Shown one piece after another: positions 14,403 through 44,954 of a stretch of DNA of 64,000 bases. Numbering within the stretch: position 1 is the stretch's first letter; each line of letters starts with the position of its first letter. The notes under the pieces were generated by a model. It had not been told where the DNA came from. It saw only the letters and a program-made list of their open reading frames with translations, and searched no databases. Made by a program: the position numbers and the translations under genes. The DNA is from a virus. The stretch lies in IMG/VR virus record IMGVR_UViG_3300028553_001580, positions 27,388-91,387 of that record, one strand, 5' to 3'.

Positions 14403-14406
14403 ATTT

Positions 14407-15471: not shown

Positions 15472-15474
15472 TTT

Positions 15475-17112: not shown

Positions 17113-17113
17113 A

Positions 17114-18100: not shown

Positions 18101-18132
18101 TTTTTGTTTTTATTTTTATATTTTTAGTTCTT

Positions 18133-19575: not shown

Positions 19576-20371
19576 TTTTAATGTATTTTAAATATATATA
19601 ATCTTCGGCGACCAATAAATCTTTCGCCCTTTTAAAGTTGTCTATGACTGCATTTATTTTTGAATTATATAAATCAAAAGATAAATCTTCAATTTTAAAT
19701 TCTTCATTTAATACAATAATACCATCTTTGTTGAAAAAATCACCTATGTTGGGTATTCCGTAATAAACTGGTATAGTTCCAGTCATAAAACAATCAGTAA
19801 TTTTTTCAGTAAACATATTCGAATAAGTCCCATTTTCCATTGTGATAGAAAAACAATAATCTCTTAAACCATCTTCTTTGTTTGATAATTCTCTAAAACC
19901 TCTACCATAATGGTCACATTGGTTTGAAAATTTATTAATCATTTGTTGTCTAAAAACGTGTTCACTACATATTACTTTATTAGATGCAATCATTGAAACT
20001 ATTTTTGTTTTTTTGTAAATTTCACCTTCATTAATAAATGATTTGCCGCTACATTGAGTTAATGCAAAAATATCAGAATATTTGGCTAACTCTACATCGT
20101 GTGTGAATACCAAAATAAAGTTTTGTTTTAAATAATCAACATTATTTTTAGCCCATTCATATAAATCGTTAATTATTGTTTTTGATTCAGATAACCATCC
20201 ATAATTTTTTGTATTTGGATTAGTTGGTGACGTTAACCCTTGGTCAACATAGATTGATATTGGTGCCGTTTGAACACCTTTGACCCATTTTATGTATAAT
20301 GGGTCAAAACCTGATGTTGATGGGCTGTGTTGGAAACCACCACCTATTAAATTAATTTCTTGTCTGTTCAT
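19565..20371 (-). CDS. Family 10-type (alpha-1,3/4) fucosyltransferase-like protein
   Basis: A 268-residue protein. The C-terminal half has the GT10 donor-binding signature: YCFSITMENGTYSNMFTEKI, then DCFMTGTIPVYYGIPNIGDFF, matching the FxxxFENxxxxxYxTEK...GxxPVxxG pattern (GDP-fucose site). YGRGFRE precedes it, as in the family. GT10 enzymes transfer L-fucose or related 6-deoxy sugars from GDP donors. It overlaps the upstream SGNH gene by 20 bases and the DegT fusion gene by 11 bases. Confidence 0.8.
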   Translation of the reverse strand: MNRQEINLIGGGFQHSPSTSGFDPLYIKWVKGVQTAPISIYVDQGLTSPTNPNTKNYGWLSESKTIINDLYEWAKNNVDYLKQNFILVFTHDVELAKYSDIFALTQCSGKSFINEGEIYKKTKIVSMIASNKVICSEHVFRQQMINKFSNQCDHYGRGFRELSNKEDGLRDYCFSITMENGTYSNMFTEKITDCFMTGTIPVYYGIPNIGDFFNKDGIIVLNEEFKIEDLSFDLYNSKINAVIDNFKRAKDLLVAEDYIYLKYIKNEI

Positions 20372-21050
20372 CTATATATTTTGAAAAGGCCTTAATCAAT
20401 AGTGGCATCGCCTCTTGTGATAAGTGTATGTCATCCATAATGAATTTTGGGTCCGTTGTCCCATCCGGTAACATTAGAGATTTTGATATATCTACAAAAG
20501 GTATATTGTTTTCAATACATTTATTATTTAGATAACTATTAAAAATCAACGTCATATTATTTCTAAAAACGACTTCACCATAGTCAATCGGTGTTTGTCT
20601 ACCAACAGATGATGCCGGTGACCCATAAACACCCACATTAATACCTTTGTTTTTTAAATATAAAACTGTTTCCATATACCTATCAATACAAATTTTAATA
20701 CCTTCTTCAAAAGTAATACCTTGTCTATCAGCATTAAATCCAATGTGGTTTCTTATGTCTATTTCACCAAAACACGTAAAAACATAATCTTTTTCACTAA
20801 CACCATATTCTAATATTGCTTGTTCTATTCTTGGTAATTTATCAAAAGAATTATATGCAGTATTTGACCCAATTTTGATAGGACAAAAATACGGTATTCT
20901 TTGTTCAAAACGATTAATTAAAGGTCTTAATTGACCCGAAGACAGTGTGTAACACGTCCCAAATTCTGGTTGAATGTGCCTCAACCCATCATGTGTCTTA
21001 TCGGTGCCCGAAAAAACTGAAACATGACTATCACCAATTATATAAATCAT
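20352..21050 (-). CDS. SGNH/GDSL-type hydrolase
   Basis: A 232-residue protein with the SGNH blocks: YIIGDSHVSVF (nucleophile Ser8), the central CFGEIDIRNHIG (in place of the Asn block), and IMDDIHLSQEA (Asp and His). SGNH enzymes include carbohydrate esterases and acetyl-removing or adding enzymes. In this sugar cluster an O-acetyl-modifying role is plausible. No signal peptide, so it would act in the cytoplasm. It overlaps the upstream gene by 4 bases (ATGA). Confidence 0.7.
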   Translation of the reverse strand: MIYIIGDSHVSVFSGTDKTHDGLRHIQPEFGTCYTLSSGQLRPLINRFEQRIPYFCPIKIGSNTAYNSFDKLPRIEQAILEYGVSEKDYVFTCFGEIDIRNHIGFNADRQGITFEEGIKICIDRYMETVLYLKNKGINVGVYGSPASSVGRQTPIDYGEVVFRNNMTLIFNSYLNNKCIENNIPFVDISKSLMLPDGTTDPKFIMDDIHLSQEAMPLLIKAFSKYIDEQTRN

Positions 21051-21874
21051 ACTCTATAAACTTGTTTTATGTTTTCTGCTAAAATACTAGCAATAATAGA
21101 TACTGAAGAAACATCTGCCTTTAACATATAATCACATTTTGCTAATGTAAATATTTCTTGAATACACTCAATACCTAGTTTGTATTTGTGTTGTTCTCTA
21201 TTCCCAATAAACCTATCATATGGGTGTAGGTGAGGGTTCTGTTCATCTGCTCTGAACATATCTTTATAATATATAACGGGTATTTTAACACTTTCTTTTA
21301 TGTTTTTTATTATCGTACCGTCATCTGTTGCTAAAAAAATCTGTTTTATTTCTGGTTTTTCAACCAAAATATTATTTATTTTGTCAAGGTATTTGTCAAT
21401 AGTTGAAACATTATGATAATGTTTCATGTCTGTTAATCTAACTTGAACACCTAAAGTAGTCTTTCCCTCAATATTATTAACATAAAAGTCTTCTAACATT
21501 TCTTTCAAATAAGTCTTTAATTGAAACGAATTGTAAAATTTATTTTTCAATTCAATGAAGTTTTGCGGATACATAAACATTTCTCTGTCCTCATAATTTA
21601 TCTTAGCAGAAATCAGACTATTCATGTTGGTGAATGCCTCACCTTCATTTATTTTTGTTTGCTCAAAGTAATATTCCCAACAATTATTTGTGTTGTGAAT
21701 AGTTGAGCCAATTTCCGTACAAACACATTCATTTGTTTCCATATCAACGTGTAACTTATCATCTAAATTTATATGTGTTAAAGCGTTTAACGTAATAAAT
21801 ATGTTACCAGCAAAACCAACGCCAGCAAACTGGTGTGATGGTGATATTTTTACAAATTGTAAATTATATTTCAT
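21047..21874 (-). CDS. Fucosyltransferase-like protein (NodZ/FUT8-type fold), copy 1
   Basis: A 275-residue protein. The C-terminal half shows LGVQVRLTDMKHYHN, the place of the GDP-binding HxRxTD motif of alpha-1,6- and O-fucosyltransferases, IKQIFLATDDGTIIKNIK and CDYMLKADVSSVSIIASILA. A shared ending (NIKQVYRV against NIKQVFKI) shows it is a paralogue of the gene at 22969-23826. Specificity unproven. It overlaps both neighbours by 4 and 11 bases. Confidence 0.65.
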   Translation of the reverse strand: MKYNLQFVKISPSHQFAGVGFAGNIFITLNALTHINLDDKLHVDMETNECVCTEIGSTIHNTNNCWEYYFEQTKINEGEAFTNMNSLISAKINYEDREMFMYPQNFIELKNKFYNSFQLKTYLKEMLEDFYVNNIEGKTTLGVQVRLTDMKHYHNVSTIDKYLDKINNILVEKPEIKQIFLATDDGTIIKNIKESVKIPVIYYKDMFRADEQNPHLHPYDRFIGNREQHKYKLGIECIQEIFTLAKCDYMLKADVSSVSIIASILAENIKQVYRV

Positions 21875-22391
21875 AACCTAATTTTTTATAGTTTTCAATT
21901 ATCTTTTCTGAATTTATTTTTTTTACTAATACGGCGGGGTTACCTTTGTAAACCCCCCATTCTTCAGTATCACCAATAAGTAAGCTACCTGCGGTTAAAA
22001 GTACCCCACGTCTAAGTATTGACCCAGGTAATACAATCGCGTTTGTCCCAATATTAGAAAACTTTTCCATAATAACGGGTTTGATTATTTGACTACCTTT
22101 TAAATCATCAGGAATCATAGCGCCAAATAAACCACTATCATCAAATCTATCTGAACCACAAATAATTCTAGCACCTGCCATTATGTTATTAAAACCTTTT
22201 GCCGTAAAAGAACTATTTTTTCCACCTATAATTGTAACGTATGGACTAATATGTACATAATCACCTATTGTGACGTTTGTTGAGCAATATACACCTTTAT
22301 CTATTGCAACATGTGAACCACTTATAGTTAAATTTTGTTTAGATAATACATCGTTATCAATAAACACGTCATCACCAATTATATTAATCAT
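21864..22391 (-). CDS. Left-handed beta-helix acyltransferase
   Basis: A 175-residue protein built of hexapeptide repeats: VFIDNDVLSK, VAIDKGVYCSTNVTIGDYVH, ISPYVTIIGG, and a second set IGTNAIVLPGSILRRGVLLT. The end WGVYKGNPAVLVKK is the standard close of sugar O- or N-acetyltransferases. In Gmd plus aminotransferase clusters, such an enzyme often acetylates a 4-amino-6-deoxy sugar (PerB-type), a fitting but unproven role here. ATGA overlap with the methyltransferase gene. Confidence 0.8.
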   Translation of the reverse strand: MINIIGDDVFIDNDVLSKQNLTISGSHVAIDKGVYCSTNVTIGDYVHISPYVTIIGGKNSSFTAKGFNNIMAGARIICGSDRFDDSGLFGAMIPDDLKGSQIIKPVIMEKFSNIGTNAIVLPGSILRRGVLLTAGSLLIGDTEEWGVYKGNPAVLVKKINSEKIIENYKKLGYEI

Positions 22392-22966
22392 ATCGTTTTT
22401 TTAAAATCTTCAACAGAAATCAAATTTAATAATCTAATTCTATCATTTTCTAACATTTCCCACGTTAATTCTGAATCAATTGTTATGATTTTTTGTTTAC
22501 CTTTTTTGATAATCCCACATCCGTAATCTGTATCAACTACCACCATATACAAATCATCACGTTCTGTTTTTAGTTTGACCCAAGCTTTCCAACAATCACC
22601 AGTCCATTCAGATTCCAACTTTGGTTGGGGATATCTTTGAATAAACTCTGAATGTGGGTTCATGTCGTGGCAAATAATAAATCCACCATCGTTTAAAACA
22701 CGTAACGAATTATTAATATCTTTATAAACTTGCTCGGACCAATGTAAACCATCAATAAAAATAATATCAAAAGTTTCATTGTTTTGGTCAAAAAAGTCAT
22801 CCGAAGTTAATCTAAATGTCACAGGAACAGTAGGTGTTGGGTCAACACAAATTTTATATTCACATTGAATGTTATTAAAATTAATTCCTGGCCCCATACC
22901 TATTTCTAGATATTTTTTTCCATTCGTTTTATTTATTAAAAATTGGATAATTTCTGTTCTTGTCAT
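22388..22966 (-). CDS. Class I SAM-dependent methyltransferase
   Basis: A 192-residue protein of the Methyltransf_24 type. Motif I is YLEIGMGPGINFNN (SAM binding), followed by CVDPTP, FDIIFIDGLHWSEQVYKDIN (post-II), LRVLNDGGFIICHDMNP. Such enzymes in sugar clusters O-methylate glycans. Substrate unknown. ATG starts 2 bases before the end of the preceding fucosyltransferase-like gene spacing and it is coupled to the acyltransferase by ATGA. Confidence 0.8.
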   Translation of the reverse strand: MTRTEIIQFLINKTNGKKYLEIGMGPGINFNNIQCEYKICVDPTPTVPVTFRLTSDDFFDQNNETFDIIFIDGLHWSEQVYKDINNSLRVLNDGGFIICHDMNPHSEFIQRYPQPKLESEWTGDCWKAWVKLKTERDDLYMVVVDTDYGCGIIKKGKQKIITIDSELTWEMLENDRIRLLNLISVEDFKKTI

Positions 22967-22968
22967 AA

Positions 22969-23826
22969 TTAAATTTTGAATACTTGTTTTATATTTTCAT
23001 TCCAAATCACAGCACCCGCTAAAACACCTGATAGTCGACCAAACAAATAATCACATTTACCTAATAATTTAGCTTGTATTATTGTTTCTTCACCTAATAA
23101 CTTACAATGGTCGGGTCTTTTTGTACTAACATTTGGCCAACAATGAACTTGGTTAATATACTCCATCGATTCATCTGTTCTTCTAAAAACGTTAGGCATA
23201 AAATAAGATGACGGAAATTTTTTATGTAGTTCATTAATATATTCCATGTCTTCACTGACAATTAAAAGTTTTGTTATTTTTGGGTTTTCATCCAGTATCT
23301 TACTGATTTCTTTAATGTAATCATTTACATCAAACACCCCGTACATTGGGTGATGTAGGTTATATTCAGTACCTCTGGCCATAACACCTAATACCACATG
23401 ACCTTTTAATTCTTGTTCATATATTTTGTCAATTTTATCTAAAATATATTGTTTAGGTTTAATATATAATTTATCAATTGTTTGTTGTCGGTTTAATTCC
23501 GATGGCTCATCAAAGTAATGTTTACTATGGTCAATTAAATCTGGTCTAGGTTTGTTGGTACAAAAGTTAACCGAATCTTCGGGACTCGGTATCTTTTGGT
23601 CAAACCAAAAATCAAAAGGATTGCCATTAGGGACTAATGTTGTTGATTCAAACGGATTAAATCCCTCAACCCAAGTTGTTTGACCCCAATCGATATATGG
23701 TATACCATTACCTCCAGTTTCGTGATGATGGATTAATTGCTCCAAACAAATTCTATAGTTTGAAAAAAATCCATACCCAAATCCCCATCCATGATTGATA
23801 GGTGCTATACGATAAAAATTAGTCAT
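22969..23826 (-). CDS. Fucosyltransferase-like protein (NodZ/FUT8-type fold), copy 2
   Basis: A 285-residue paralogue of the 21047-21874 product. It begins FYRIAPINHGWGFGYGFFSN, carries VVLGVMARGTEYNLHHPMYG in place of the HxRxTD motif, then ITKLLIVSEDMEYINEL and CDYLFGRLSGVLAGAVIW, ending NIKQVFKI. The Arg is kept but the Asp of the GDP-binding motif is Glu. The N-terminal halves of the two copies differ strongly, suggesting different acceptors. It overlaps the cupin gene by 8 bases. Confidence 0.62.
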   Translation of the reverse strand: MTNFYRIAPINHGWGFGYGFFSNYRICLEQLIHHHETGGNGIPYIDWGQTTWVEGFNPFESTTLVPNGNPFDFWFDQKIPSPEDSVNFCTNKPRPDLIDHSKHYFDEPSELNRQQTIDKLYIKPKQYILDKIDKIYEQELKGHVVLGVMARGTEYNLHHPMYGVFDVNDYIKEISKILDENPKITKLLIVSEDMEYINELHKKFPSSYFMPNVFRRTDESMEYINQVHCWPNVSTKRPDHCKLLGEETIIQAKLLGKCDYLFGRLSGVLAGAVIWNENIKQVFKI

Positions 23827-24238
23827 TCTTAATGAAGGTTTTATCTAAGGATTGACCTTCATAAGGTCCTGTTTTATACTCATAAACAATCGTATCATCT
23901 TCTAAAATCTCGTATGTGTGCCCACCATATAGTGTGAAGCTGGCATCACCAGCACCTAAAATTGGCGTTGATATTATTGTATCATCAATGTCGTATAATA
24001 TACATTTAACACGACCTTTTATAACCACCCAAGATTCTTGTGCAATTTGTTTTGGGTGGTGTCTATCTTTGGTTATGTGTTTGTGTGGCGGGAAAGTTTT
24101 TCTCCTTTCCATTCTTAATGTGGCACACTGAATAAAATTATCTTCTGGGACAATTTCAGTTCTTCCTTGTATTTCAGATAATCTATTAATAACATGTAAT
24201 AGTTTTCCTTTTTCAATTTTTGAATAAATTTTTTCCAT
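23819..24238 (-). CDS. Cupin-fold sugar-cluster protein (WbuC-like)
   Basis: A 139-residue single-domain cupin. Motif 1 is FPPHKHITKDRHHPKQIAQE (His and Glu ligands) and motif 2 lies around GAGDASFTLYGGHTYEILED. It resembles WbuC-family cupins found beside fucose-type O-antigen genes (function unknown) and, less, sugar 3,4-ketoisomerases. It sits between two fucosyltransferase-like genes, which fits the WbuC context. Confidence 0.72.
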   Translation of the reverse strand: MEKIYSKIEKGKLLHVINRLSEIQGRTEIVPEDNFIQCATLRMERRKTFPPHKHITKDRHHPKQIAQESWVVIKGRVKCILYDIDDTIISTPILGAGDASFTLYGGHTYEILEDDTIVYEYKTGPYEGQSLDKTFIKND

Positions 24239-24241
24239 TTT

Positions 24242-25045
24242 TTAAAACCTAATCCAATTTTCGGGTAATATATCCCCTGTGTTATGATGTATTGATTCTC
24301 CAAACCATTTTAAAGGTCCAATGACTTTTTTAAAAGGGTTATTATTTAACCATGCTCCCCACCAAGAAAATGAAGAGTTAGAAATAATATTATTCCTACA
24401 CAAACTCATTAAATACATTTCAATATAATCCTTTTCATTTTCAATGTAAAGTGAGTTGGGTAGATTTAAATTTTTCTTACACCATTCTATGTCGTCACTA
24501 AATGTTACAAACATATCAGTAATATTTTTTAATTTTTCAACCGCACAAAGGTAATATTCTAAGCTCTGTGTGGGGTGATGGTTTGGGAAATTTAAATAAT
24601 CTCCCCTCCTAATATGAAGTGATGTACAATTTTTTTGAAAAATTATTGGGTATTTTTCAAAAAGGTATTCTTTATCAATAAAACTAAAATCAATAAAATC
24701 TATTATATGTGTACGATTGTGTTTAAAATACTTTTCACTCTGAAAAAACCCATCTATGAAAACATCTTGTGTGATTGGGTCGGTTTCAATAAACTCAAAG
24801 GGATATTTAATTATTTGCGGTTGTGGGTTTGTTACGTTATCTGTTTTTAAATTTTTAAAAATTTTTATATACTCATTACTATGATTTAATTTTGGGTTGT
24901 GAGTATTTTCTAAATCTAAATAAGATAAATGATGATGTAAGTTTGGAAATGAGCAATTGGTGTTATTATCGATTGATAAGGATTTAGTAGCTGCAATTTG
25001 AAAAAACATATTTCCTAAACCCCCTTTCAAATTACAATATATCAT
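24242..25045 (-). CDS. Family 11 alpha-1,2-fucosyltransferase-like protein
   Basis: A 267-residue GT11 protein with all family landmarks: N-terminal NLKGGLGNMFFQIAATKSL, the donor motif SLHIRRGDYLNFPN (about residues 142-155), VTFSDDIEWCKKN, and IISNSSFSWWGAWLNNNP near residue 225. GT11 enzymes attach L-fucose through alpha-1,2 links, mostly from GDP-L-fucose. This is the firmest glycosyltransferase family call in the cluster. It implies that a GDP-fucose-like donor is available from the phage gmd plus a host or distant fcl gene. ATGA overlap with the GT2 gene. Confidence 0.9.
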   Translation of the reverse strand: MIYCNLKGGLGNMFFQIAATKSLSIDNNTNCSFPNLHHHLSYLDLENTHNPKLNHSNEYIKIFKNLKTDNVTNPQPQIIKYPFEFIETDPITQDVFIDGFFQSEKYFKHNRTHIIDFIDFSFIDKEYLFEKYPIIFQKNCTSLHIRRGDYLNFPNHHPTQSLEYYLCAVEKLKNITDMFVTFSDDIEWCKKNLNLPNSLYIENEKDYIEMYLMSLCRNNIISNSSFSWWGAWLNNNPFKKVIGPLKWFGESIHHNTGDILPENWIRF

Positions 25046-25761
25046 AACTTAGTATATGGTTTTTTATTTCTTATGATATTAACAATTTTTAAAATTTTTT
25101 CCATATTAACTTTGTGGTCATTAATTGGGTTACTTTCATTATAAATGTAATTAATTTCAGACATAAATTTATAATGCTCAATACCACTCATTTCGGCCAT
25201 CGGGTACATGAATGATAAATCCCCAGCAACGCTCCAATACTCCCCATCATGATTTTTCAAATCATCTTGATTTATTTTTCTCCATAAAAAAACTTTCCAA
25301 GTCCTAAGGTGTGTTAACGTAAACGTCTCATTTCTAATATTATCAAAACTTGTATATGGTTGAGCAAATCCCATTCTACCATCGTGGTATTTAAAAGAAC
25401 CATTTGCCAGCCAAATGTCACCACTATTATAATGATTCACTATTCTTTCAAAAACTTTGCTATCGGGTAACCAATCATCACCATCTACCTCAATACAAAT
25501 ATCATCATCTTCTACCCCATAGTTTCCTCTTATTACTTGGTCATAATTACCCGGCTGGTACATTTTGTTTTTGTTTTCAATTAAAATGAATCTATTATCC
25601 TCTTTTATAAAATTTTTTATTTTATTAACGGTTTGGTCAGTCGACATGTCATCGGTAATAAAACATCTAAAATCTTTATGTGTTTGTGTCATTATGGTTG
25701 CCAAACATTTTTCAATATAATCTTGACAGTTATATGTTGTTGTTAAAATAACTAAACTCAT
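25042..25761 (-). CDS. Family 2 glycosyltransferase
   Basis: A 239-residue GT-A enzyme: SLVILTTTYNCQDYIEKCLA, RCFITDDMSTDQTVNKI and the metal-binding VDGDDWLPD near residue 95. The later GEYWSVAGDLSFMYPMAE is typical of the acceptor side. Donor unknown. The next gene starts 1 base away. Confidence 0.85.
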   Translation of the reverse strand: MSLVILTTTYNCQDYIEKCLATIMTQTHKDFRCFITDDMSTDQTVNKIKNFIKEDNRFILIENKNKMYQPGNYDQVIRGNYGVEDDDICIEVDGDDWLPDSKVFERIVNHYNSGDIWLANGSFKYHDGRMGFAQPYTSFDNIRNETFTLTHLRTWKVFLWRKINQDDLKNHDGEYWSVAGDLSFMYPMAEMSGIEHYKFMSEINYIYNESNPINDHKVNMEKILKIVNIIRNKKPYTKL

Positions 25762-27399
25762 TTAATTTAAAATTTTAATATATAATTCTTTTATTTTTTT
25801 ACTTACTTCCAATGAATCAAATTTTTCAATATCACTTGGAGGTTCGTGTAATTTTTTATCTACAATATATCCACTACTTTCAACATTGTAAATCCATCCA
25901 GGTTTTCCACACATCCAACCTTCAATGGTTGTTCTTCCAAGAAGTATTCCTGCAGTTTCTGAACAGTTTTTAACAAACGTTTCAACTCTACTTGTTGCAT
26001 TGGAATGTTTTACGTGTTGATTAGTTAACAAGTCATCAAGGTAGTTTGATTTATTTTCTCCCACCAACCATAATTCTTTTCCCACTTCTTTAGAATATGA
26101 AACCAAATCTCTAATTGCGTTTTCTCTTAAGTAATCAATTGTTCCAACAAATAAAATGTAGTTTTCATCTTTTGTATTATTGGTATTAAATCTTTTTGAA
26201 TCAATTGGATTATAAACAACTTCAGTATTACTTGTATCAATATTAAATTTTTCTATAATATGTTCTTGAATTTCAGGTCTTATGCAAACATATTTTTTAA
26301 TTGATTCGTGTAATATCGGATTTTCTAACTCAATAACTTCTGAATGTATTGTTGATATTTTATTAATATTTGGATACATCTGACAAATTTGATTTGATAC
26401 AGGTGTATGTTGAGTATGTATAATATCAAAATTAACATCAGATATTTTATACATTACATTTGGTTGTGTTGGTTTAAACCCTTCTGGTGTGTTAAACCCC
26501 CATTTACCATCACCCAACTTATATCCGGGCGATTGTTGAAAAGGTAAAACTTTAATTCCTTGTTGTTTTGCCAATTGTGATAGAGGTCCATTAATATCAG
26601 ACACAACCGTAACATCACAATTTAATTTTTTTAACCCTCTTGCCAATTCATAAACATACATTTCTGAACCTGTAAAAGTTTTGAAAAACAAACATGACAA
26701 CATAACTTTCAATGGTGATTCTAAAGTTAAATTTCTTTTAATTTTTAATGGTAAAACATCTTTAAATTTTTCTGCAAATTCTTCTCTATTTTTTTCCCAT
26801 TGTTCATTTGTCATCCCGATTGATTTATGTGTAATTCTTACATCATACATAACACCAATTTTAACTCCTTCCAAATGGTTTCTAAATGAAAAGTCCACAT
26901 CATAAAAATGAAATCCTTTTACGTCTTCGTTGAAATTCTTTTTGATATTTTTTTTATTTATTGCAAGAAAAAGACCATCAACAAGTAAAACGTTGTCTAA
27001 TTGATTTCCAAGACTTGTAGAATATTTAGATTCCCATTTTTTTCCATCGTGTTCGTGATTGACAATTCCTTTTAATTTTGAAAAGTCTTCCCACCATTTG
27101 CCTGATGATGGAAGTGAAGTTGACCCTGCAACACCAAGAATGCCATAATCAGAATTTCTTTTAAAATAATTTAATATTTTGGAACCCCAATTTTTGCTAT
27201 CAAAATATATATCATCGTGACATAGAACAATAATGTCATTTTCAGATTTCTCTATCAATTTGTTGTAAACCTGACTTAGTGAAAATTCACCATTGTTTTC
27301 AACAGGTAATATTTCAATTTTAGAAACTCCTGATGTTTTTTTTAACATGGACACAAAATTGTCGTCCACTTTTCTTGTTGAAAATCCTACTGTTAACAT
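25762..27399 (-). CDS. Two-domain glycosyltransferase (GT-A plus GT-B fusion)
   Basis: About 545 residues from the preferred start. The N-terminal part (about 220 residues) is GT2-like: MLTVGFSTRKVDDNF, NDIIVLCHDDIYFDSKNWGS (acidic motif HDD), LLVDGLFLAINKKNI, FYDVDFSFRNH. The C-terminal part is a GT4-like GT-B: KVMLSCLFFKTFTGSEMYVY, HTQHTPVSNQICQMY, ENYILFVGTIDYLRENAIRD, GILLGRTTIEGWMCGKPGWI. The frame is open to 27468, but ATG 27399 is preferred: it begins at the natural first strand and overlaps by 7 bases the stop of a coupled 50-codon gene upstream. Confidence 0.82.
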   Translation of the reverse strand: MLTVGFSTRKVDDNFVSMLKKTSGVSKIEILPVENNGEFSLSQVYNKLIEKSENDIIVLCHDDIYFDSKNWGSKILNYFKRNSDYGILGVAGSTSLPSSGKWWEDFSKLKGIVNHEHDGKKWESKYSTSLGNQLDNVLLVDGLFLAINKKNIKKNFNEDVKGFHFYDVDFSFRNHLEGVKIGVMYDVRITHKSIGMTNEQWEKNREEFAEKFKDVLPLKIKRNLTLESPLKVMLSCLFFKTFTGSEMYVYELARGLKKLNCDVTVVSDINGPLSQLAKQQGIKVLPFQQSPGYKLGDGKWGFNTPEGFKPTQPNVMYKISDVNFDIIHTQHTPVSNQICQMYPNINKISTIHSEVIELENPILHESIKKYVCIRPEIQEHIIEKFNIDTSNTEVVYNPIDSKRFNTNNTKDENYILFVGTIDYLRENAIRDLVSYSKEVGKELWLVGENKSNYLDDLLTNQHVKHSNATSRVETFVKNCSETAGILLGRTTIEGWMCGKPGWIYNVESSGYIVDKKLHEPPSDIEKFDSLEVSKKIKELYIKILN

Positions 27400-27545
27400 T
27401 CTAAATTTAATTTTTTCAATTCTTCTACTAAAAGGTTTAGTTTTTCTTTCATGTGAATATTCCACCACCCATCATTTTTTTTTGACATCACTAATTCGAT
27501 TTTAGTTTTATATATTTCTTCACACAGTTTTTTTTTATCTTTCAT
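27393..27545 (-). CDS. 50-residue gene coupled to dUTPase
   Basis: A short frame starting ATGA over the dUTPase stop (ATG 27545-27543, TGA 27544-27542) and ending in TAA at 27393, overlapping the next glycosyltransferase start. Product begins MKDKKKLCEEIYKTKIELVM, has a central DGWWNIHMKEKLN and ends LLVEELKKLNLEC: two charged helices around a WW turn. The exact coupling at both ends and the helical pattern support a real gene. Function unknown. Confidence 0.6.
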   Translation of the reverse strand: MKDKKKLCEEIYKTKIELVMSKKNDGWWNIHMKEKLNLLVEELKKLNLEC

Positions 27546-28141
27546 AGACCAGTACTTCCAAATCCATTATCGTTTCTGTCTTTGTCATCCATACTTTTTG
27601 TTTGAATTAAAGAAACCCATTTACCATTTACCACAGGACAAAGAACGGCTTGTGCGATTTTCTGACCTTTTACTATTTTTACTTTTTCTGTTGTTGTATT
27701 AAAAATAATAACTTTAACTTCACCTAAATAACCACTATCAACGGTTCCTGGTGAATTTAAAACGAATAGTCCTTGGTTTAATGCCAAACCACTTTTTGAC
27801 CTAACTTGGATTTCATATCCGTCAGGAATATTGAATTTTAGACCGGTTGGTACTAATGACCTTGAGTTTGGAAAAACCCAAACATCTTCCGACGCTCTTA
27901 AATCAAAACCTGAATCACTTTTGTAAGCATATTCAGGATTAACATTTTCACTTTCATTAATAAATTTTAATTCAACTGAACTTGTAAATTGACTTTCAAA
28001 ATGTTGGTTTAAGTCATTCATATCAACACCCATAGACTTTAACATCGCTTCAGGGTTTGACATATCCACATCACCAAACTGTGTTTGAAGGTCTTTAAGT
28101 GCCTTCACGCTACTTTTAATATCTTTTATTTTATCAAACAT
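27542..28141 (-). CDS. dut: dUTPase (dUTP diphosphatase)
   Basis: A 199-residue trimeric-type dUTPase, which makes dUMP from dUTP and keeps uracil out of DNA. All five motifs are seen: SDSGFDLRA, VRSKSGLALNQG, NSPGTVDSGYLGEVKV, QKIAQAVLCPV and the C-terminal RNDNGFGSTG. A helical N-terminal extension of about 55 residues (FDKIKDIKSSVKALKDLQTQ) is not part of the usual enzyme (about 150 residues). It is coupled to the exonuclease gene upstream by one base and to the 50-codon gene downstream. Confidence 0.95.
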   Translation of the reverse strand: MFDKIKDIKSSVKALKDLQTQFGDVDMSNPEAMLKSMGVDMNDLNQHFESQFTSSVELKFINESENVNPEYAYKSDSGFDLRASEDVWVFPNSRSLVPTGLKFNIPDGYEIQVRSKSGLALNQGLFVLNSPGTVDSGYLGEVKVIIFNTTTEKVKIVKGQKIAQAVLCPVVNGKWVSLIQTKSMDDKDRNDNGFGSTGL

Positions 28142-28869
28142 TATTTTAATGATTTTAATTTTTTTATTGTTGAAATTAATACATCAACATCTTTTTCACA
28201 ATATTTTGCAATTTCATCTAATCTGTTAGACTCCCAATAAGCCGAATGAACCATTCCTCCATTGATTTCGCCATCTTTAGGTGTTGGTATATCTAAACAA
28301 GAGCACATTAAATCTAAAGAACCAATTGAGGTGTACGCTCCGTATTGCCATATTTCTTTAGTGTCAATGGCTTTAACTTCCCAAGGTTTAGTATCGTAAG
28401 ACGGTAGTATTTTAGATGGCATAATACCATTTACAATCATACGTTTAGCTAACATCGGTATGTCAAAGTTTTTAAGGTTGTGACCACAAAGATAAAAATC
28501 CAATTTATGACAACGGTCCAAAAGATTTCTCACTTCCAAAAGAAGTTTTTCTTCATCATCGTTTTTAAATGTTTGTTTTTTAACCTCACCATTTTCTAAA
28601 ACAAATGCCATTGACACACAAACAATTTTTGCAAACTCAGGCACTAACGCGGTACGTAATGAATAGACATCATTCATTTTTTGCATTTCATCTTCTAACC
28701 CGTTTGTTTCAACATCATCTTCAGGGAATCTTTTTAAAAACCAATCAAAGTATTTAACAAATTGTTCCGCAATAGTTGGGTTTGTTTTTTGACAAGTAGA
28801 CCAGTCTTTACAGATACCTACAGTTTCGATATCTAAAAATAAAATTTTTGTTATAGGAATATTAATCAT
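28141..28869 (-). CDS. DnaQ-like 3'-5' exonuclease (PolB exonuclease type)
   Basis: A 242-residue DEDDy exonuclease. ExoI is ILFLDIETVG, ExoII is LCGHNLKNFDIPMLAKRM, ExoIII is AKYCEKDVDVLI (Tyr and Asp). It resembles stand-alone exonucleases related to the proofreading domain of family B polymerases, widespread in Bacteroidota and their phages. The phage polymerase here has its own exonuclease domain, so this one likely serves repair or end processing. Coupled to dut. Confidence 0.88.
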   Translation of the reverse strand: MINIPITKILFLDIETVGICKDWSTCQKTNPTIAEQFVKYFDWFLKRFPEDDVETNGLEDEMQKMNDVYSLRTALVPEFAKIVCVSMAFVLENGEVKKQTFKNDDEEKLLLEVRNLLDRCHKLDFYLCGHNLKNFDIPMLAKRMIVNGIMPSKILPSYDTKPWEVKAIDTKEIWQYGAYTSIGSLDLMCSCLDIPTPKDGEINGGMVHSAYWESNRLDEIAKYCEKDVDVLISTIKKLKSLK

Positions 28870-28875
28870 TTTTAT

Positions 28876-29118
28876 TTAATTATTTGATGTTATTTTACCA
28901 CCAAAAGGAAATCCAGCAAACCCTTCTAAATCCATAATTGACTCTAAAAGTGAAATACAATAGGTTTCGTCTTTTGAATTAAATTGATGTGATTTAAACT
29001 TATATGATGAGTCATCAGTGATAATATAAAACAACATAAAATTTTCGTTTGTTGACGGATGATTGATATAGTTATCGTATACTTCTTGTGGTGTTAATTG
29101 TTGTGTTAATGTGTTCAT
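28876..29118 (-). CDS. Hypothetical protein
   Basis: An 80-residue protein, not recognised: LTQQLTPQEVYDNYINHPST, a strand pair FMLFYIITDDSSYKF, and GFAGFPFGGKITSNN at the end. It fits tightly between the exonuclease and a glycosyltransferase (3-6 bases), which supports it being a real gene. Confidence 0.58.
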   Translation of the reverse strand: MNTLTQQLTPQEVYDNYINHPSTNENFMLFYIITDDSSYKFKSHQFNSKDETYCISLLESIMDLEGFAGFPFGGKITSNN

Positions 29119-29121
29119 ATT

Positions 29122-30339
29122 TTATTTAATTAGGGATTTATATAGGTCTGCTCTATTTTTTGTGACAATATTAAGGTCGTACGTGTCTTTAACAGTTTCA
29201 TACAATTTTTGACCTAAGTCATATGCGAAGTTAGGGTTATCAATTAACTTTTTCATATATTTTGCCCAATCACTATGATTTCTTGATTCATCTACTAAAA
29301 GTGCATTTCCATCTGTAAATTGACCATTTTTTAATGAATGTTTTAAATCAATTGTATAAGGACCTATATTTGATGCAATAATCGCTTTTTTATAGAATCC
29401 AGCTTCAATTACTTTTAATTGTGATTTTACTCTGTTAAAAATATGATTTTTAATAGGGGATAAAGATACATCAAAAAGTCTATAATTTGATGCGTAAGAT
29501 GTTACAGGTTTGGTCCAAACACGATTGTAAAATGGTTCTTGTTCTAAGGTGTACTCAACGTCTTCAAACTTTTTTAAATACTCTAAATGTTGTGGTGAAA
29601 CCATTTTGTAGTTATCTGTAAAAATTTCTTCATAACGAGCCCAAACAGTTTCTTCAGGTTTAATTGGTCTTTGTTTTTGTTCTCCTGTTTGTTTGTTAAT
29701 TTCAGTTACAGTTCCTCTAGTATCAAAACCACATAAATGTAAAGAATATTTATCTTTTGAGTCTTTAAGTTTATTTACAACACCATCTAATAACTTTAAA
29801 TCGTGTAAGTGTGAAGAACCCCCTAACCAACCAAAACGAAGTTTTTCTGATGGTTTTGTTTCGTAATTAAACTGAGGTTCTTTTGGGTTAATCGCATTTG
29901 GTAAAACGTGAACATTTTTATTTATTTTAGAAATTTCTGAAGCAAATAAAGATGTAGTTGTTGTTATATGTGATGCAACTTTTAAATTTGCAACTATCTT
30001 TTGGTTTAATTTATTTTGCACAATTAACTGATGGATAGGATGTTCTTTTGTTGGTAACCAATAATCATCTAAATCCATTATTGTAATAATACCAATAGAG
30101 TTTAATTTTTGAATTAAATCAACCGCCATATCAAAATCTTGACCTATAGACCTATGAAAATGTACAATGTCATATTGTTTCCAATAGTTATAGTCATTGA
30201 TTTTGGGGTCGTAGTCAATATCTACGTGAAACTCATCTGAGTGATTATTTTGAAGACAAACGTGGGGGTCTACTGAACGGAATTTTCCAACTCCGGTCCG
30301 GTCGCTAGGGGTGACTAAAACCTTAATTTTTTTTGACAT
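29122..30339 (-). CDS. GT4-like (GT-B) glycosyltransferase
   Basis: A 405-residue GT-B enzyme. N-terminal lobe: KVLVTPSDRTGVGKFRSVDP, YDIVHFHRSIGQDFDMA, IITIMDLDDYWLPTKEHPIH, VHVLPNAINPKEPQF. C-terminal lobe: LRFGWLGGSSHLHDLKLLDG, YRLFDVSLSPIKNHIFNRVK, VIEAGFYKKAIIASNIGPYT (donor-site E). The call is secure at fold level; the sugar is unknown. Its start overlaps the stop of a homing endonuclease gene by 17 bases, so the endonuclease sits directly at the head of this gene. Confidence 0.85.
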   Translation of the reverse strand: MSKKIKVLVTPSDRTGVGKFRSVDPHVCLQNNHSDEFHVDIDYDPKINDYNYWKQYDIVHFHRSIGQDFDMAVDLIQKLNSIGIITIMDLDDYWLPTKEHPIHQLIVQNKLNQKIVANLKVASHITTTTSLFASEISKINKNVHVLPNAINPKEPQFNYETKPSEKLRFGWLGGSSHLHDLKLLDGVVNKLKDSKDKYSLHLCGFDTRGTVTEINKQTGEQKQRPIKPEETVWARYEEIFTDNYKMVSPQHLEYLKKFEDVEYTLEQEPFYNRVWTKPVTSYASNYRLFDVSLSPIKNHIFNRVKSQLKVIEAGFYKKAIIASNIGPYTIDLKHSLKNGQFTDGNALLVDESRNHSDWAKYMKKLIDNPNFAYDLGQKLYETVKDTYDLNIVTKNRADLYKSLIK

Positions 30340-31180
30340 ATTTTTTTATAATTTTATTTATTAATTTTGGGTTTTTGTTGTATTCCGTTTCCCAAATCAC
30401 TTCTAAATTATAACCATTACTTTTTATTAAATCAATTTTCTTTTTGTCATAATTCCATATTTCTTCTGCGGACATTTTTTTTAATTCATGATAATAATCA
30501 AAATTATACTTATTAGGGTTACAATGCCAATAGTCGCCATTATATTCTATAATTAAATTTAATTCAGGAATAAAAATATCACAAATATATGGCCTTAAAA
30601 CTTTACTATGTTTTGTATTAGTAAATTGTTTTTTTATTTTTTCAAATATTTCTATTTCACTTTTTGACCTACTATTAAAATTTATAGGATTAATTTCTAT
30701 TCTTTTTAGTAATATTTCTTTTAATTTTTCTCTGTTTTCTAATTTTGCCATAGAATTGTTTTTCCCCATTCCCTTACCCTTTCTACTTTTAGAAATTTCT
30801 TTTTTTGTTTTTTTTGTGTGTTTCTTTCCATAAAACGGGTTACCTGTTCCGATTTGGGATTCAAGTGAACATTTTTTACATTCTATATTTTTTTCAATTT
30901 TATTGAAATGATTTCTACATGCGATTGTTTTATTTTTTGACTTAGTTAAAATAGTTTTCTTACAACTAGGACAAACTCTTTCAACAATATAAAACTCATC
31001 TTTTTTAATAATATTTAAACTATTACACCTATCTCGTTTTCTTGTTACATTGTGTTTTTTTAATATTTTTAAAATTGTTGGTTTAGAAACCCCAAACTCT
31101 GATGACAACACCAATGAGCTTTTTCCACTAATATATTCTTGTAAAACTTTTTTTTCGTCTAAATTTATTTTATTTCCCAT
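30323..31180 (-). CDS. Free-standing homing endonuclease (NUMOD3, Vsr-like)
   Basis: A 285-residue site-specific endonuclease. Residues 1-45 are a helix-turn-helix (LVLSSEFGVSKPTILKILKK). Two Cys pairs follow (CPSCKKTI, ECKKC) forming a zinc ribbon. A NUMOD3 DNA-binding motif is at GTGNPFYGKKHTKKTKKEIS (about 110-130). The C-terminal domain is Vsr-like: RSKSEIEIFEKI, YICDIFIPELNLIIEYNGDY with the catalytic Asp and Glu, and WHCNPNKYN. Such genes spread by cutting alleles that lack them. It sits between a terminator and a glycosyltransferase gene and overlaps the latter. Low G+C and very high Lys set it apart from neighbours. Confidence 0.85.
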   Translation of the reverse strand: MGNKINLDEKKVLQEYISGKSSLVLSSEFGVSKPTILKILKKHNVTRKRDRCNSLNIIKKDEFYIVERVCPSCKKTILTKSKNKTIACRNHFNKIEKNIECKKCSLESQIGTGNPFYGKKHTKKTKKEISKSRKGKGMGKNNSMAKLENREKLKEILLKRIEINPINFNSRSKSEIEIFEKIKKQFTNTKHSKVLRPYICDIFIPELNLIIEYNGDYWHCNPNKYNFDYYHELKKMSAEEIWNYDKKKIDLIKSNGYNLEVIWETEYNKNPKLINKIIKKYVKKN

Positions 31181-41357: not shown

Positions 41358-42077
41358 TTAGTCATTAAGTTTTGACTGCGTCGAATATAAATCATTTACA
41401 AACCCCCAATTAACCACCTTCCAAAAGTTTGAAACGTACTTATCCCTTTGATTTTTATACTTTAAATAATACGCATGTTCCCAAACATCTAACCCCAAAA
41501 GAGGATATCCTCTAACTTCTTGGTTGTCCATTAATGGGTTATCTTGATTTGCGGTTGTAACAATTTTTAGTCTATTAGTTTTAGTTAATATTAACCAAAC
41601 CCACCCTGAACCAAATCTTGATTTTGCCTCTTCTTCAAACTTTTCTTTAAATTTTTCAAAAGAACCAAAAGTTTTTTCAATTTTAGATTTTATTGGGTCT
41701 TCAAGTTTTTGTTTTTTTGGTGAAAGCATTTTCCAAAATAATGCATGATTAAATGCTCCGCCACCATTATTTCTAACAACAGTATTAAACTTTGATATGT
41801 CTGAAACTATTTGTTCCAAATCTAAATCTTTCCCTTTAACTTTTTCTAATTCTTTGTTTAACTTATCAACATAACCTTTGTAATGTTTGTTGTAGTGAGT
41901 ATTCATAGTCTCACTATCAATAAAAACTTCTAAAGAATTATAATCATATGGTAATTTATCTATACTGATTTTTTTAATTTCACTAATTAAGGTGATTTTT
42001 TCAGATGATTCAATTTCTAATAATGATTCAATATGATTGATTGTTTTTAAGTACCCTTCGAAAATTTTTGATTTCAT
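41358..42077 (-). CDS. sodA: Mn-type superoxide dismutase with N-terminal extension
   Basis: A 239-residue Fe/Mn superoxide dismutase, which turns superoxide into hydrogen peroxide and oxygen. All four metal ligands are present: His61 (MNTHYNKHYKGYV), His111 (NNGGGAFNHALFW), Asp197 and His201 (GLDVWEHAYY). GGG before the second His and TANQDNPL (Gln178) are of the manganese type. The enzyme core starts near LPYDYNSLEVFIDSETM at residue 42; about 40 residues before it are extra, helical and charged, and include IFE after residue 7 and ISE at 31-33 (possible gp21 sites). It lies between helicase and gp13-like genes. Auxiliary gene; virion packaging is speculation. Confidence 0.9.
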   Translation of the reverse strand: MKSKIFEGYLKTINHIESLLEIESSEKITLISEIKKISIDKLPYDYNSLEVFIDSETMNTHYNKHYKGYVDKLNKELEKVKGKDLDLEQIVSDISKFNTVVRNNGGGAFNHALFWKMLSPKKQKLEDPIKSKIEKTFGSFEKFKEKFEEEAKSRFGSGWVWLILTKTNRLKIVTTANQDNPLMDNQEVRGYPLLGLDVWEHAYYLKYKNQRDKYVSNFWKVVNWGFVNDLYSTQSKLND

Positions 42078-42089: not shown

Positions 42090-44954
42090 TCACCTCCTAT
42101 AGGAAATCATATTTAACATTTCTTCAATTGTCGATGCGTCATCCATCATATCGTCACCCATAACTGTTGCTATGATTTTTTTCTTCCTATTGAGTATGTC
42201 GTATATCGCACCTTCAATAGTGTTTTCAAAAAGTGGATAATAAACAGATGTGGAATTTTTTTGTCCTATTCTATGGGACCTGTCTTCGGCTTGTGAATGT
42301 TCTGCAGGAACAAATGATAAATCATTCATTATCACGGCTTCAGCTGACGTTAAAGTAATACCAACCCCTGCAGCTTTCAGGTTTCCAACAAATACTCTTA
42401 TTTTGTCGTTTGTTTGAAATTCATCCACAGCGTTTTGTCTATGAAACTTAGAACAACTACCGTCAAGATAGACCGCTTGTTTTCCAAAATGATTGTAAAT
42501 TATGTTTAATGTATCTGTAAAATTTGTAAAAATAATAACCTTTTTACCTTGCTCAATAATATTTTCAGCTAACTCAATTGTATTATTTATTTTTTCTTGA
42601 GCGATAACTTTTCTAACTTTCATTAACTTTGAAAACTGAATTGTTAACGATGAAGACTCTTCAGGTCTTGAATCGTACCAATCAAAATATTCCCCCATTA
42701 ACTCTTCATAATCTTTTGACTTTAGTCTTAAATAAACAGGAGTTATAATTTTTTCAGGTAAATCTAACACTTCTTCTTTTAATCTTCTAAGAATATGTGT
42801 TTGAGTTCTTTCTCTTAATTCTTCTAAATTTGATGCCCCTGTTACGTTCCAAACTTTTCTTTTACCAACACTAAATTGAAACCCATTACAATATCTTTTA
42901 GCGTATGCCATCCAATTCGCAGCCACAGGACTATCAACTAAATTTAATAAGTTATAATAATTCATAGGTCTTGAGGTTATAGGGGTTCCAGTTAATAACC
43001 AAACTCTTTCAATCGATGTTGCTATGTCATTTATTATTTTAGTGCGTTGAGCTTGTGGGTTACTCACAACATGACAATTACTGACTAAAATATTATTTGC
43101 AAAATAATTGTGATTATCTACAACTTCTAAATCGTATACGCTTGTATTTTTTTCAGACAATCCATTATATTGTTGTCGATTTCTTCGTTCCAAAATCTTA
43201 ATACTGTCCACCCCAATGAAGTTAATATTTCTGTTTTTCTTTTGTCTATAAATTTCCATTTTTTTAGTTTGTGGCTTTTCCCATCTATTTCTATAATTAA
43301 CATCAGTTTCAAATTGGCGATATCTACATTGTAATGATTTGGTAAACTTTTTTGATGTCCAATATAATCTTTTGTTAAAATAGTGTATTCCATTTCCCAC
43401 TCTTGACTTAAAACTTTGTATAATTTTTTTTGTTGTTTTGTTAATGTCCCGTTTCCGCCTCTCGATAAAAAAGTTTTTCCAGACAAAGATTTTTTCATTT
43501 TTTCCAATGATTCCAAATTGAACATTGGGTTGTTTTTTTTCATTCTTTCCGACGATTCCTTCCTTATATTTGGATTTTTCCTGTGAACTTCTTTCATTTT
43601 TTCTGACATATTGTGTTTTTTCATGGAGTTTTTCCACTTCTGTCTTGTTTCTTCTTTTTTCCATTTCATTTTGCTTGCGCAACTTATTGAACAACAAATT
43701 TGTTTTTTCATTTGTGATTGTGTTTGAAATTTCATTATTTCTCCACAATGTAAACATTTTTTTTGATGTTTTAATTCTATTTCTTTTTTTTGTGGTGGAT
43801 TTTTTTTGTAACGATATGTCGTGCTGCAAGATTTTGAACAAGTTTGACTCTTCTTCATTATTTGTTTTTTTGTTAATAATTTTTGACAATTCAAACACAT
43901 AGTCGTTTGTATTAATTTTATCGGCTCTAACATATCCTTTATCTTTTACATATATTTTATGATTTGGTGTACACTCTATAAATACTCCGTTGTGTAATTT
44001 AATTTGAAGTATAGTGTCTGTTTTTTTAAATAATTTTCTAAATATTTTTTTGTATTCGGTTTTTTTTGTGTTGTGATTATAAGACAAAATATCTACATCT
44101 AAATTTTTTTCAACAATATCACCAATTTTAATTTCACCTTTATTTGTTGTTATTTTAGTGTCGTAAGTAAAACATTCGTCAGCAATTAAAAGGTCAAAAT
44201 TAGATTTTAATATTTCAGAATTTTCTTTATTTTTAGGGTCGTGAAAGTTTTTTAAAATGTCGTAATTTATTATCACAATGTCGTGATTCGTTGAAAACTT
44301 CTTCCCTTCAGCAATATAAACATTACGGTCACTATATATATTAATCTCTCTTTGCCAATTTATTTTAAGCGAAGCGGGACATATTATTAGTATTTTTTTA
44401 ATATCAGATTCTAACGCGGCGATTACTGACGAACCCGTTTTTGCAAGTCCCATATCGTCAGCTAAAATAAACTTTTTATTACCAACCAATTTTTCAATAG
44501 CAACCTTTTGATGTTCCATTGGTGGTCTAACGTAATACTTGCTATAATCAATAACAATATTTTTTACTTCGTTGTCTTTAATGATTGCAGATTTTGGTAT
44601 CCAAAAATCGTGTAATGTTTCACCACTAAAAATCTTACCCCAAATATGAAAAGCTTTATCTTTTTCTACTAATAACTTTTCAACATAAATTTCAGAAGGT
44701 TCTTTTGTATACATTTTGTCCTCCATAAGTTTTTTACCAAAATATGAGTCTAACTTAACCCATTTTTTTGCAACCTTTGGATTTGTGTTCCTATAATTTA
44801 TTATGTATTCAGATTGACTTCTTGTTGGGGTAAAAGATTTACTATTTTCCTTTTTGTGTTTTAAATTTAGGATATAGTTATTTGACCCTTCATAATCTTC
44901 TAATATTAAAAGGGCCTTTGACTCTGGTGTTTTTGACACAAAATCTTCACTCAT
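42090..44954 (-). CDS. SNF2-type helicase (UvsW-like role) interrupted by an intein
   Basis: A 954-residue frame; removing a 366-residue intein (residues 261-626) leaves a 588-residue SF2 helicase/translocase. Motif I is LADDMGLAKTGSS (Ala for the usual Gly of GLGKT). Motif II, ADECH, is split by the intein between Glu and Cys. Motif III is LLTGTPITSRPMNYYNLL. After it come LRRLKEEVLDLPEKI, KVIIFTNFTDTLNIIYNHF, GVGITLTSAEAVIMND (motif V) and EDRSHRIGQKNSTSVYY (motif VI), all of SNF2 type. The role in phage is likely recombination or fork processing, as for T4 UvsW. It must splice to be active because the intein breaks the Walker B motif. Confidence 0.9.
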   Translation of the reverse strand: MSEDFVSKTPESKALLILEDYEGSNNYILNLKHKKENSKSFTPTRSQSEYIINYRNTNPKVAKKWVKLDSYFGKKLMEDKMYTKEPSEIYVEKLLVEKDKAFHIWGKIFSGETLHDFWIPKSAIIKDNEVKNIVIDYSKYYVRPPMEHQKVAIEKLVGNKKFILADDMGLAKTGSSVIAALESDIKKILIICPASLKINWQREINIYSDRNVYIAEGKKFSTNHDIVIINYDILKNFHDPKNKENSEILKSNFDLLIADECFTYDTKITTNKGEIKIGDIVEKNLDVDILSYNHNTKKTEYKKIFRKLFKKTDTILQIKLHNGVFIECTPNHKIYVKDKGYVRADKINTNDYVFELSKIINKKTNNEEESNLFKILQHDISLQKKSTTKKRNRIKTSKKMFTLWRNNEISNTITNEKTNLLFNKLRKQNEMEKRRNKTEVEKLHEKTQYVRKNERSSQEKSKYKEGIVGKNEKKQPNVQFGIIGKNEKIFVWKNFFIERRKRDINKTTKKIIQSFKSRVGNGIHYFNKRLYWTSKKFTKSLQCRYRQFETDVNYRNRWEKPQTKKMEIYRQKKNRNINFIGVDSIKILERRNRQQYNGLSEKNTSVYDLEVVDNHNYFANNILVSNCHVVSNPQAQRTKIINDIATSIERVWLLTGTPITSRPMNYYNLLNLVDSPVAANWMAYAKRYCNGFQFSVGKRKVWNVTGASNLEELRERTQTHILRRLKEEVLDLPEKIITPVYLRLKSKDYEELMGEYFDWYDSRPEESSSLTIQFSKLMKVRKVIAQEKINNTIELAENIIEQGKKVIIFTNFTDTLNIIYNHFGKQAVYLDGSCSKFHRQNAVDEFQTNDKIRVFVGNLKAAGVGITLTSAEAVIMNDLSFVPAEHSQAEDRSHRIGQKNSTSVYYPLFENTIEGAIYDILNRKKKIIATVMGDDMMDDASTIEEMLNMISYRR
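43077..44174 (-). mobile_element. Intein in helicase motif II
   Basis: A 366-residue intein. Block A is CFTYDTKITTNKGEIKIGDI from Cys1; block B is GVFIECTPNHKIYV (Thr and His); block F is SVYDLEVVDNHNYFANNILV; the end is Ser-Asn, followed by extein Cys (+1) in CHVV. The penultimate residue is Ser rather than the usual His, a known but less common variant. Between blocks B and F lie about 270 residues that, in the intein frame, are Lys/Arg/Asn-rich without any domain. The same DNA in the +1 frame encodes a homing endonuclease (43127-43933). Confidence 0.92.
43127..43933 (-). CDS. Homing endonuclease nested out of frame inside the intein
   Basis: A 268-residue protein in the +1 frame relative to the helicase-intein frame. 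It has two zinc-ribbon-like units (MCLNCQKLLTKK with CSKSC; CLHCGEIMKFQ with CCSISC), a NUMOD-like basic middle (NNPMFNLESLEKMKKSLSGK), and a C-terminal Vsr/DUF559-type nuclease domain: YNVDIANLKLMLIIEIDGKS, KRKTEILTSLGWTVLRFWNE with the Asp and Glu of a PD-(D/E)xK site. It spans almost exactly the linker between intein blocks B and F. Start ATG 43933, or the ATG 11 codons later before CLNC. It is the coding frame by domain content, yet the intein frame is also open throughout. Confidence 0.85.
   Translation of the reverse strand: MLEPIKLIQTTMCLNCQKLLTKKQIMKKSQTCSKSCSTTYRYKKNPPQKKEIELKHQKKCLHCGEIMKFQTQSQMKKQICCSISCASKMKWKKEETRQKWKNSMKKHNMSEKMKEVHRKNPNIRKESSERMKKNNPMFNLESLEKMKKSLSGKTFLSRGGNGTLTKQQKKLYKVLSQEWEMEYTILTKDYIGHQKSLPNHYNVDIANLKLMLIIEIDGKSHKLKKWKFIDKRKTEILTSLGWTVLRFWNEEIDNNIMDCLKKIQAYTI

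Follow-up and report, generated by a model that had tools for sequence, protein, structure and literature searches.

A Predicted Vsr-Like Homing Endonuclease Overprinted in the +1 Frame of a Phage Helicase Intein

Fractured genes, in which split inteins carry EDxHD/Vsr endonucleases between the intein halves, were reportedly described by Dassa and colleagues in 2009. Out-of-frame endonucleases in open insertions are already known as well: the ShiLan insertion is open in the host frame, holds an endonuclease with its own start codon in another frame and has a disjunct distribution, and according to its authors it has no splicing domain, encodes an HNH nuclease and is proposed to stay in the host protein (PMC11855218). 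An out-of-frame endonuclease in an open insertion has also been reported for the methylase of phage Applejack (PMC12613952), and a brucellaphage terminase is said to hold an out-of-frame, intein-encoded HNH gene (PMC4422536). Furthermore, Gosselin et al. 2025 (bioRxiv 10.1101/2025.01.02.630785) and Gorbalenya 1998 are cited in PMC11855218 for overlapping frames in actinobacteriophages and may already report an intein whose endonuclease lies in a different frame, and phage introns have been described to hold a large outgroup of EDxHD/Vsr homing endonucleases that had gone unrecognised (PMC12350094). Here we analyze a helicase gene in a window of 64,000 nucleotides (positions 27,388 to 91,387 of the 91,387-base virus record IMGVR_UViG_3300028553_001580). 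The major capsid protein of this virus matches Gp23 (1.8e-73), which makes it a T4-like phage. The helicase gene very probably carries a mobile intein with a homing endonuclease overprinted in the +1 frame of its own linker, so that one stretch of DNA would give two products.

The Helicase Intein and the Nuclease Within Its Linker

The host gene is an open reading frame (ORF) of 954 amino acids on the minus strand (44954-42090), like all features of this locus, and it is stop-free throughout. A Pfam search of its frame detected Intein_splicing (5.9e-11), SNF2 and Helicase_C. The N-extein (44175..44954) corresponds to an SNF2-type SF2 helicase up to motif II, with SNF2-rel_dom matched in two stretches, and the C-extein (42090..43076) contributes the remaining CH of motif II and the helicase C domain. 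Between them, an intein of 366 amino acids (44174-43077) is inserted in frame within the conserved motif II (DE/CH, the slash marking the insertion point), where relatives have empty DE/AH alleles; the junctions read ...LIADE/CFTYDTK...NILVSN/CHVVSN, with Cys1 first, Ser-Asn last and Cys+1 next. The N splicing part (residues 1-99, 43878..44174) contains Cys1 and the block B motif TxxH and was recognized by Pfam Intein_splicing and by our own hidden Markov model (HMM) run on the identical locus L001. The C splicing part (residues 317-366, 43077..43226) holds blocks F and G and the Ser-Asn end before Cys+1, and was found by Pfam, by our HMM and in the structural model. AlphaFold gave a predicted local distance difference test (pLDDT) above 90 over residues 1-90 and near the C-terminal end, save for a patch of low values at residues 334-340, and the modelled intein ends match Hint structures, e.g. 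those of NrdJ-1 and DnaE (E 1e-7). C1, T69, H72 and N366 are invariant among 38 aligned inteins, and a Hint-like fold, Cys1, TxxH, the terminal Asn and Cys+1 are all present.

The linker between both splicing parts (43227..43877) is stop-free, overlaps the nuclease and has no Pfam match, and its pLDDT is mostly low (36-65 across blocks 101-310 and below 50 over residues 189-313), which bears out the claim of an earlier, sequence-only note that this frame contains no domain there. A genuine domain in the linker frame was rejected on these grounds together with a near-neutral substitution-rate ratio (w). An RNA intron instead of an intein was also rejected, as the window has no Rfam match at gathering cut-offs and the splicing domain lies in frame.

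The nuclease ORF (43933-43127, 268 amino acids; ATG at 43931-43933, stop at 43127-43129) is likewise open and is offset by one nucleotide, i.e. it occupies the +1 frame of the helicase ORF, in which Pfam detects DUF559 at 2.2e-16. The third frame of the overlap contains 34 stops. The nuclease is thus not encoded in the intein's own frame, as would be the case in an ordinary large intein, and the host gene is not broken into two ORFs; coordinates and architecture, an unsplit intein with an out-of-frame nuclease, are as the earlier note had them. The structural model of the nuclease (mean pLDDT 87.2, predicted TM-score 0.50) retrieved 3hrl, 3r3p (the catalytic domain of I-Bth0305I) and, at rank 5, E. 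coli Vsr (1vsr) as best Foldseek matches, with E values of 0.004 to 0.067 and none below 0.001, and at the level of sequence profiles 3hrl was matched at 5.7e-12 and 3r3p at 0.024, a weak match to the EDxHD family proper. The DUF559/Vsr-like catalytic domain (43139..43342) carries a conserved D/E/D/H/D set, kept in 145-146 of 146 overprinted relatives. Upstream of it lie a zinc-ribbon-like part (43679..43756), whose cysteines C60, C63, C81 and C85 show a conservation of 90% or more across an alignment of 43 nucleases, and a helical, DNA-binding-like segment (43484..43636) with a conserved RM...NPM motif and short modelled helices. The latter is NUMOD-like in appearance, and no NUMOD match was obtained with Pfam at E values up to 1, so that this detail of the earlier note is weaker than claimed; the middle part of the nuclease shows conserved cysteines and short helices. 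Taken together, sequence and model fit a homing endonuclease of the Vsr-like type whose N-terminal part is rich in cysteines and for which cutting is predicted.

Selection on Both Frames and Extent of the Family

To quantify the double open frame, codons were shuffled synonymously, so that both the protein sequence and the codon usage of the nuclease stay the same. In the window, 14.4 (standard deviation 2.4) stops are expected in the intein frame and none is seen, and none of 20,000 shuffles reached zero; the third frame, with 34 stops seen versus 34.0 expected, behaves as predicted. Across 145 overprinted copies the host frame has 0 stops versus 1213.4 expected, and in 113 of them not one of 500 shuffles was stop-free. 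The third frame of the same copies contains 2123 stops versus 1958.8 expected, slightly more than expected, which argues against a general avoidance of stops. The controls, six copies from split inteins (147 stops versus 157.9 expected) and five intein-free copies (113 versus 117.5), behave as they should, since the split and most of the intein-free copies have about as many stops as predicted. At the codon level, a third-base T before a codon starting with AA, AG or GA occurs 0 times in 5914 cases in overprinted copies and 4948 times in 15610 elsewhere. The exception among the free-standing nucleases is L242 (3977-4579), whose 19 would-be host-frame stops (26.7 expected) are below all 500 shuffles; this deficit may be the trace of a recent overprinted past, since its sister L243 is overprinted (support 99/94).

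Substitution rates were estimated from 18 of 71 pairs, chosen so that no sequence occurs twice; multiple hits are not corrected for, and some changes into stops are counted (31.5 of 231 sites), because the method alters one base at a time. The resulting w is 0.37 for the nuclease, 0.38 for the first 70 intein residues, i.e. the N splicing part, and 1.19 or 0.74, depending on the estimate, for the linker; between L001 and L004 the nuclease value is 0.25. By these values the nuclease is under purifying selection and, like the splicing part, conserved as a protein, and the linker is a spacer close to unconstrained except that it lacks stops. Both frames are therefore under selection as judged by comparative sequence analysis, in agreement with the earlier note, which had considered two open frames unlikely by chance, had suggested selection for an open intein frame and had pointed to synonymous change in homologues as a check.

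Why the nuclease always lies in the +1 phase can be explained by the genetic code. In this arrangement a host-frame stop is possible only where a nuclease codon ends in T, and since each T-ending codon has a C-ending synonym, the linker can always be opened at no cost to the nuclease protein. In line with this, exact minimisation always reached zero stops in the +1 phase by synonymous choice. In the other same-strand phase, no more than 15 of the 146 nucleases, taken over their profile-aligned part, could reach zero, and the minimum for the window was 8. Of the two same-strand options, one alone is thus always openable at no nuclease cost. A single origin would also explain one shared phase and is compatible with this reason.

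The locus is not unique, and the overprinted design recurs across many phages and bacterial genome records. We classified 320 loci from a first profile scan and three further scans, fetching up to 80 per scan from at least 225, at least 233, 460 and 196 relatives. They hold 214 distinct nucleases, i.e. neither identical nor contained in one another in the core, of which the 160 scoring above 75 bits against the family profile were counted; beyond these lie 46 DUF559 proteins at up to 60 bits and 8 at 60-75 bits, all intein-free, the latter serving as outgroup. Among the 160, 146 are overprinted in an unbroken intein and host ORF (a proportion that is biased, as weighed below), all 146 of them in +1, six belong to split inteins, five have no intein nearby and three, cut or decayed, retain a C part only (L017, L260, L264). 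An in-frame nuclease fusion was found in none of the 160. Clustering gives 132 groups at 90% identity and 117 at 70%. The overprinted nucleases share a median pairwise identity of 40%, range from 0.28 to 0.67 in GC content and come from 119 viral contigs, six named phages and 21 bacterial genome records, which are mostly metagenome bins, may contain phage and include ten named phyla and two records without phylum. Of the two alternatives offered in the earlier note, an intermediate or a stable two-in-one design, the latter is favored by these 146 distinct copies in one phase, and overprinting looks like an old, stable way of building such elements.

Within the first 90 loci (L001-L004, L006-L091) the host frame is open across the whole nuclease in 85, all 85 with splicing-domain matches in this frame; the N splicing part is absent only in L017 and L022, both starting at a contig end. 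Helicase domains were detected in 13 of 13 distinct host proteins scanned by Pfam (the window, five named phages and seven more). Inteins could be delimited in 137 of the 146 cases by a pattern that demands Cys or Ser first and Asn before Cys, Ser or Thr, so that these features are partly given by construction; 136 start with Cys and 130 directly follow D-E, and of the seven that do not, two look wrongly delimited, as perhaps do some of the 12 inteins whose +1 residue is Ser or Thr. In named phages, a tblastn search with the nuclease matched 40 records, in which the annotated feature under each match is a single host gene, i.e. a helicase, hypothetical, coil-containing or P-loop protein and never a nuclease; an overprinted nuclease is therefore easily missed. 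Six of these phages were fetched (Pseudomonas MR14, Vibrio K391, CP-T1, 104E43.1 and 1.194.O, and Corynebacterium phi673), and all six have a continuous helicase-like ORF, a DE/CH intein and the nuclease in +1 (Pfam run on five). A search of bacterial genomes with the single window protein gave no match; the profile search, from which 80 of 196 loci were kept, gave the 21 distinct overprinted copies, two with C part only, two family members without intein and otherwise repeats or ordinary DUF559 proteins. A plasmid search with the helicase returned 552 records, all below 60% identity, of which five were looked at. As a side observation, the host ORFs of L089 and L064 combine an overprinted intein with an upstream in-frame LAGLIDADG homing domain in the same ORF.

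Homing and Competing Explanations

Of 451 viral loci related to the helicase, 80 that are 88-100% identical in the helicase C part were analyzed for the occupied and the empty site. An uninterrupted allele, for which the earlier note had proposed to look, is present in 79 of the 80, which are intein-free and read DE/AH, and the only intein-bearing one (L323) is the same contig as L001, fetched again. In comparison with the inteinless L324, the window is 96-99% identical at 400-1400 nucleotides (nt) upstream of the site, but over the last 400 nt before it the identity falls to 60-83%; on the downstream side it is 63-75% over the first 100 nt, 92-98% at 100-800 nt and 90% at 800-1000 nt. In the nearest 30 nt, the window shares 87-90% identity with L002 and L004, which bear the intein, versus 60-63% with L324. 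Hence, the intein is present or absent among close relatives with a co-conversion-like footprint; the latter is as would be expected from gap repair that copies the intein and its flanks, and it fits the Ala-to-Cys change at +1. For three of the five intein-free nucleases (L052, L167, L242), the next gene downstream is a helicase gene that has no intein and that the nuclease gene overlaps; this arrangement provides an independent tie between nuclease and helicase target; L062 and L261 do not adjoin such a gene. The contig L167, whose nuclease gene stands alone just ahead of the helicase, shows a broken helicase frame (about 4890-4915) precisely at the codon of motif II where relatives carry the intein; either a scar left by cleavage or an error in sequencing may account for it.

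Splicing, internal initiation with expression of the nuclease, and cleavage are predicted from these data as follows. Ribosomes would translate helicase and intein straight through as one precursor, and the Hint halves, which lie outside most of the overlap, would fold and splice out to restore motif II, so that stop-freedom would be the only need of the linker. Internal initiation at the nuclease start codon on the same message would yield a separate protein with a cysteine-rich part and a DUF559/Vsr-like domain, which may cut intein-free motif II (DEAH) alleles in co-infecting phages. Repair would then copy the intein with its flanks and convert DE-AH into DE-CH, providing the Cys+1 required for splicing.

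Alternatively, the nuclease could be made by +1 ribosomal frameshifting from the N part of the intein, which would join the helicase N-terminus, that N part and the nuclease in one protein. The +1 phase in 146 of 146 copies and the nuclease frame of the window, which opens just four codons ahead of the ATG, would be in line with this. However, the cost of stops already explains the shared phase, the nuclease is a separate gene in the five relatives without intein nearby, and a candidate start codon near the end of the N splicing part is present in 144 of 145 copies (121 ATG, 14 GTG, 9 TTG); we therefore regard frameshifting as improbable. Slightly less probable still is a decaying relic, i.e. 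an intein that still splices next to an inactive nuclease remnant. Inteins often lose endonuclease function, and L264 is a likely decayed copy in which no N splicing part was found, but the low w of the nuclease, both between L001 and L004 and over the 18 pairs, the retention of the catalytic residues in nearly all copies and the patchy presence of the intein together with its footprint argue against a relic. A double open frame by chance or through an assembly effect is refuted by the shuffling results for the window and the 145 loci and by relatives: L001, from another IMG/VR record and possibly the same sample, is identical across the intein, and in L002/L003, which differ from each other at 3 positions in 10.8 kb, as well as in L004, two frames are again open and the third is filled with stops, with nucleases 88-89% identical to that of the window.

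Several observations weigh against the interpretation as an active homing intein with a separately initiated nuclease. The penultimate residue of the window intein is Ser instead of His. The likeness to L002 and L004 near the insertion is limited to about 30-60 nt, and at 60-400 nt upstream the window is just 68-88% identical to either of them, which implies a donor outside the loci compared; ordinary recombination could account for part of the footprint. Distances between nucleases correlate with those of the inteins (r 0.57) no better than with those of the helicases (r 0.61), and this does not support frequent jumps between distant hosts. The ATG of the window nuclease exists, as had been claimed, and its Shine-Dalgarno match is weak and badly spaced, so the start is an assignment from sequence; the family-wide Shine-Dalgarno excess is modest (mean -5.67 versus -4.86 kcal/mol, best of candidate starts). 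Furthermore, the search seeds were mostly overprinted members, which makes 146 of 160 a biased frequency, and the likely decayed L264 (4012-4683, a Polaromonas record) has only the C splicing part and two host-frame stops.

Split Relatives, Genomic Surroundings and Known Systems

In the six split relatives (L040, L086, L095-L098) the host frame is broken: a first ORF stops after block B, the +1 nuclease follows, and a third ORF, in phase with the first, opens with the C splicing part. Between L086 and L098 the nuclease parts do not differ. A careful tree of 61 of the 146 overprinted rows, rooted on ordinary DUF559 proteins and with a bootstrap that is not fully settled, places the six in a single clade (100/99), which joins five overprinted copies in a clade of 11 (95/95), with a support of 83 in a larger quick tree. 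This nesting under a DUF559 root favors the order overprinted first, split second, and the overprinted form is likely the parent of the split form, as far as a tree with an unsupported deep backbone suggests. The suggestion that the locus could be an intermediate was thus half right: a route to split inteins looks likely, and the absence of fusions among the 160 nucleases gives no sign of an in-frame stage. A broader proposal, to which we would give about even chances, is that a large family of mobile SF2-helicase inteins has overprinting, and not in-frame fusion, as its ancestral and prevailing design, that stops entering the linker once the halves trans-splice yield such split inteins, and that the code fixes the phase.

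Directly downstream of the helicase, the window encodes a Fe/Mn superoxide dismutase (41358-42077, minus strand), and the stretch of helicase and dismutase DNA gave only partial matches to a collection of named phages (1-11% of the query, 5 records). A stand-alone ORF with a NUMOD3 motif (30323-31180, minus strand) is probably another homing endonuclease gene, and a long series of ORFs at 13590-30339 resembles glycosyltransferases, sugar epimerases and methyltransferases, judged by reading the translations. Outside the window, the same phage has a second intein (L321, G000:C1:23947-24864) with HNH-like residues in the intein's own frame; its host gene is large and portal-like (gene and HNH assigned by reading only), so that an apparently ordinary intein design occurs in the same genome.

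A literature search, with key papers outside it, found no description of a DUF559/Vsr nuclease overprinted in an intein or of this helicase site. This analysis adds the extent of the family, the selection controls, an explanation of the shared phase, the homing footprint and a link with split inteins. Overprinting would represent a third way to couple protein splicing with homing, besides in-frame fusion and split genes, and a concrete, testable route to natural split inteins. The family also offers split-intein pairs and site-specific nucleases that are as yet untested, and it forms a clean natural experiment on overlapping genes, with the split and free-standing copies as controls.

Compared with I-Bth0305I (3r3p), an EDxHD homing endonuclease, the window nuclease agrees in the catalytic fold (probability 1.00, TM 0.68-0.73 depending on the target length, Foldseek E 0.0055-0.0072), with a sequence-profile similarity that is marginal (E 0.024). 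I-Bth0305I itself has further domains and an intron setting. In the ShiLan type, as in the window, an open insertion holds an endonuclease ORF in a different frame, but the window has a full intein, a DUF559/Vsr-like nuclease and an SF2 helicase host. The brucellaphage insert (PMC4422536) differs in its HNH nuclease and terminase host. Finally, fractured genes of the type ascribed to Dassa and colleagues have a Vsr-like nuclease between the intein halves, as in our six split relatives, whereas in the window, as in the other overprinted copies, the gene is unbroken and the intein frame passes through the nuclease.

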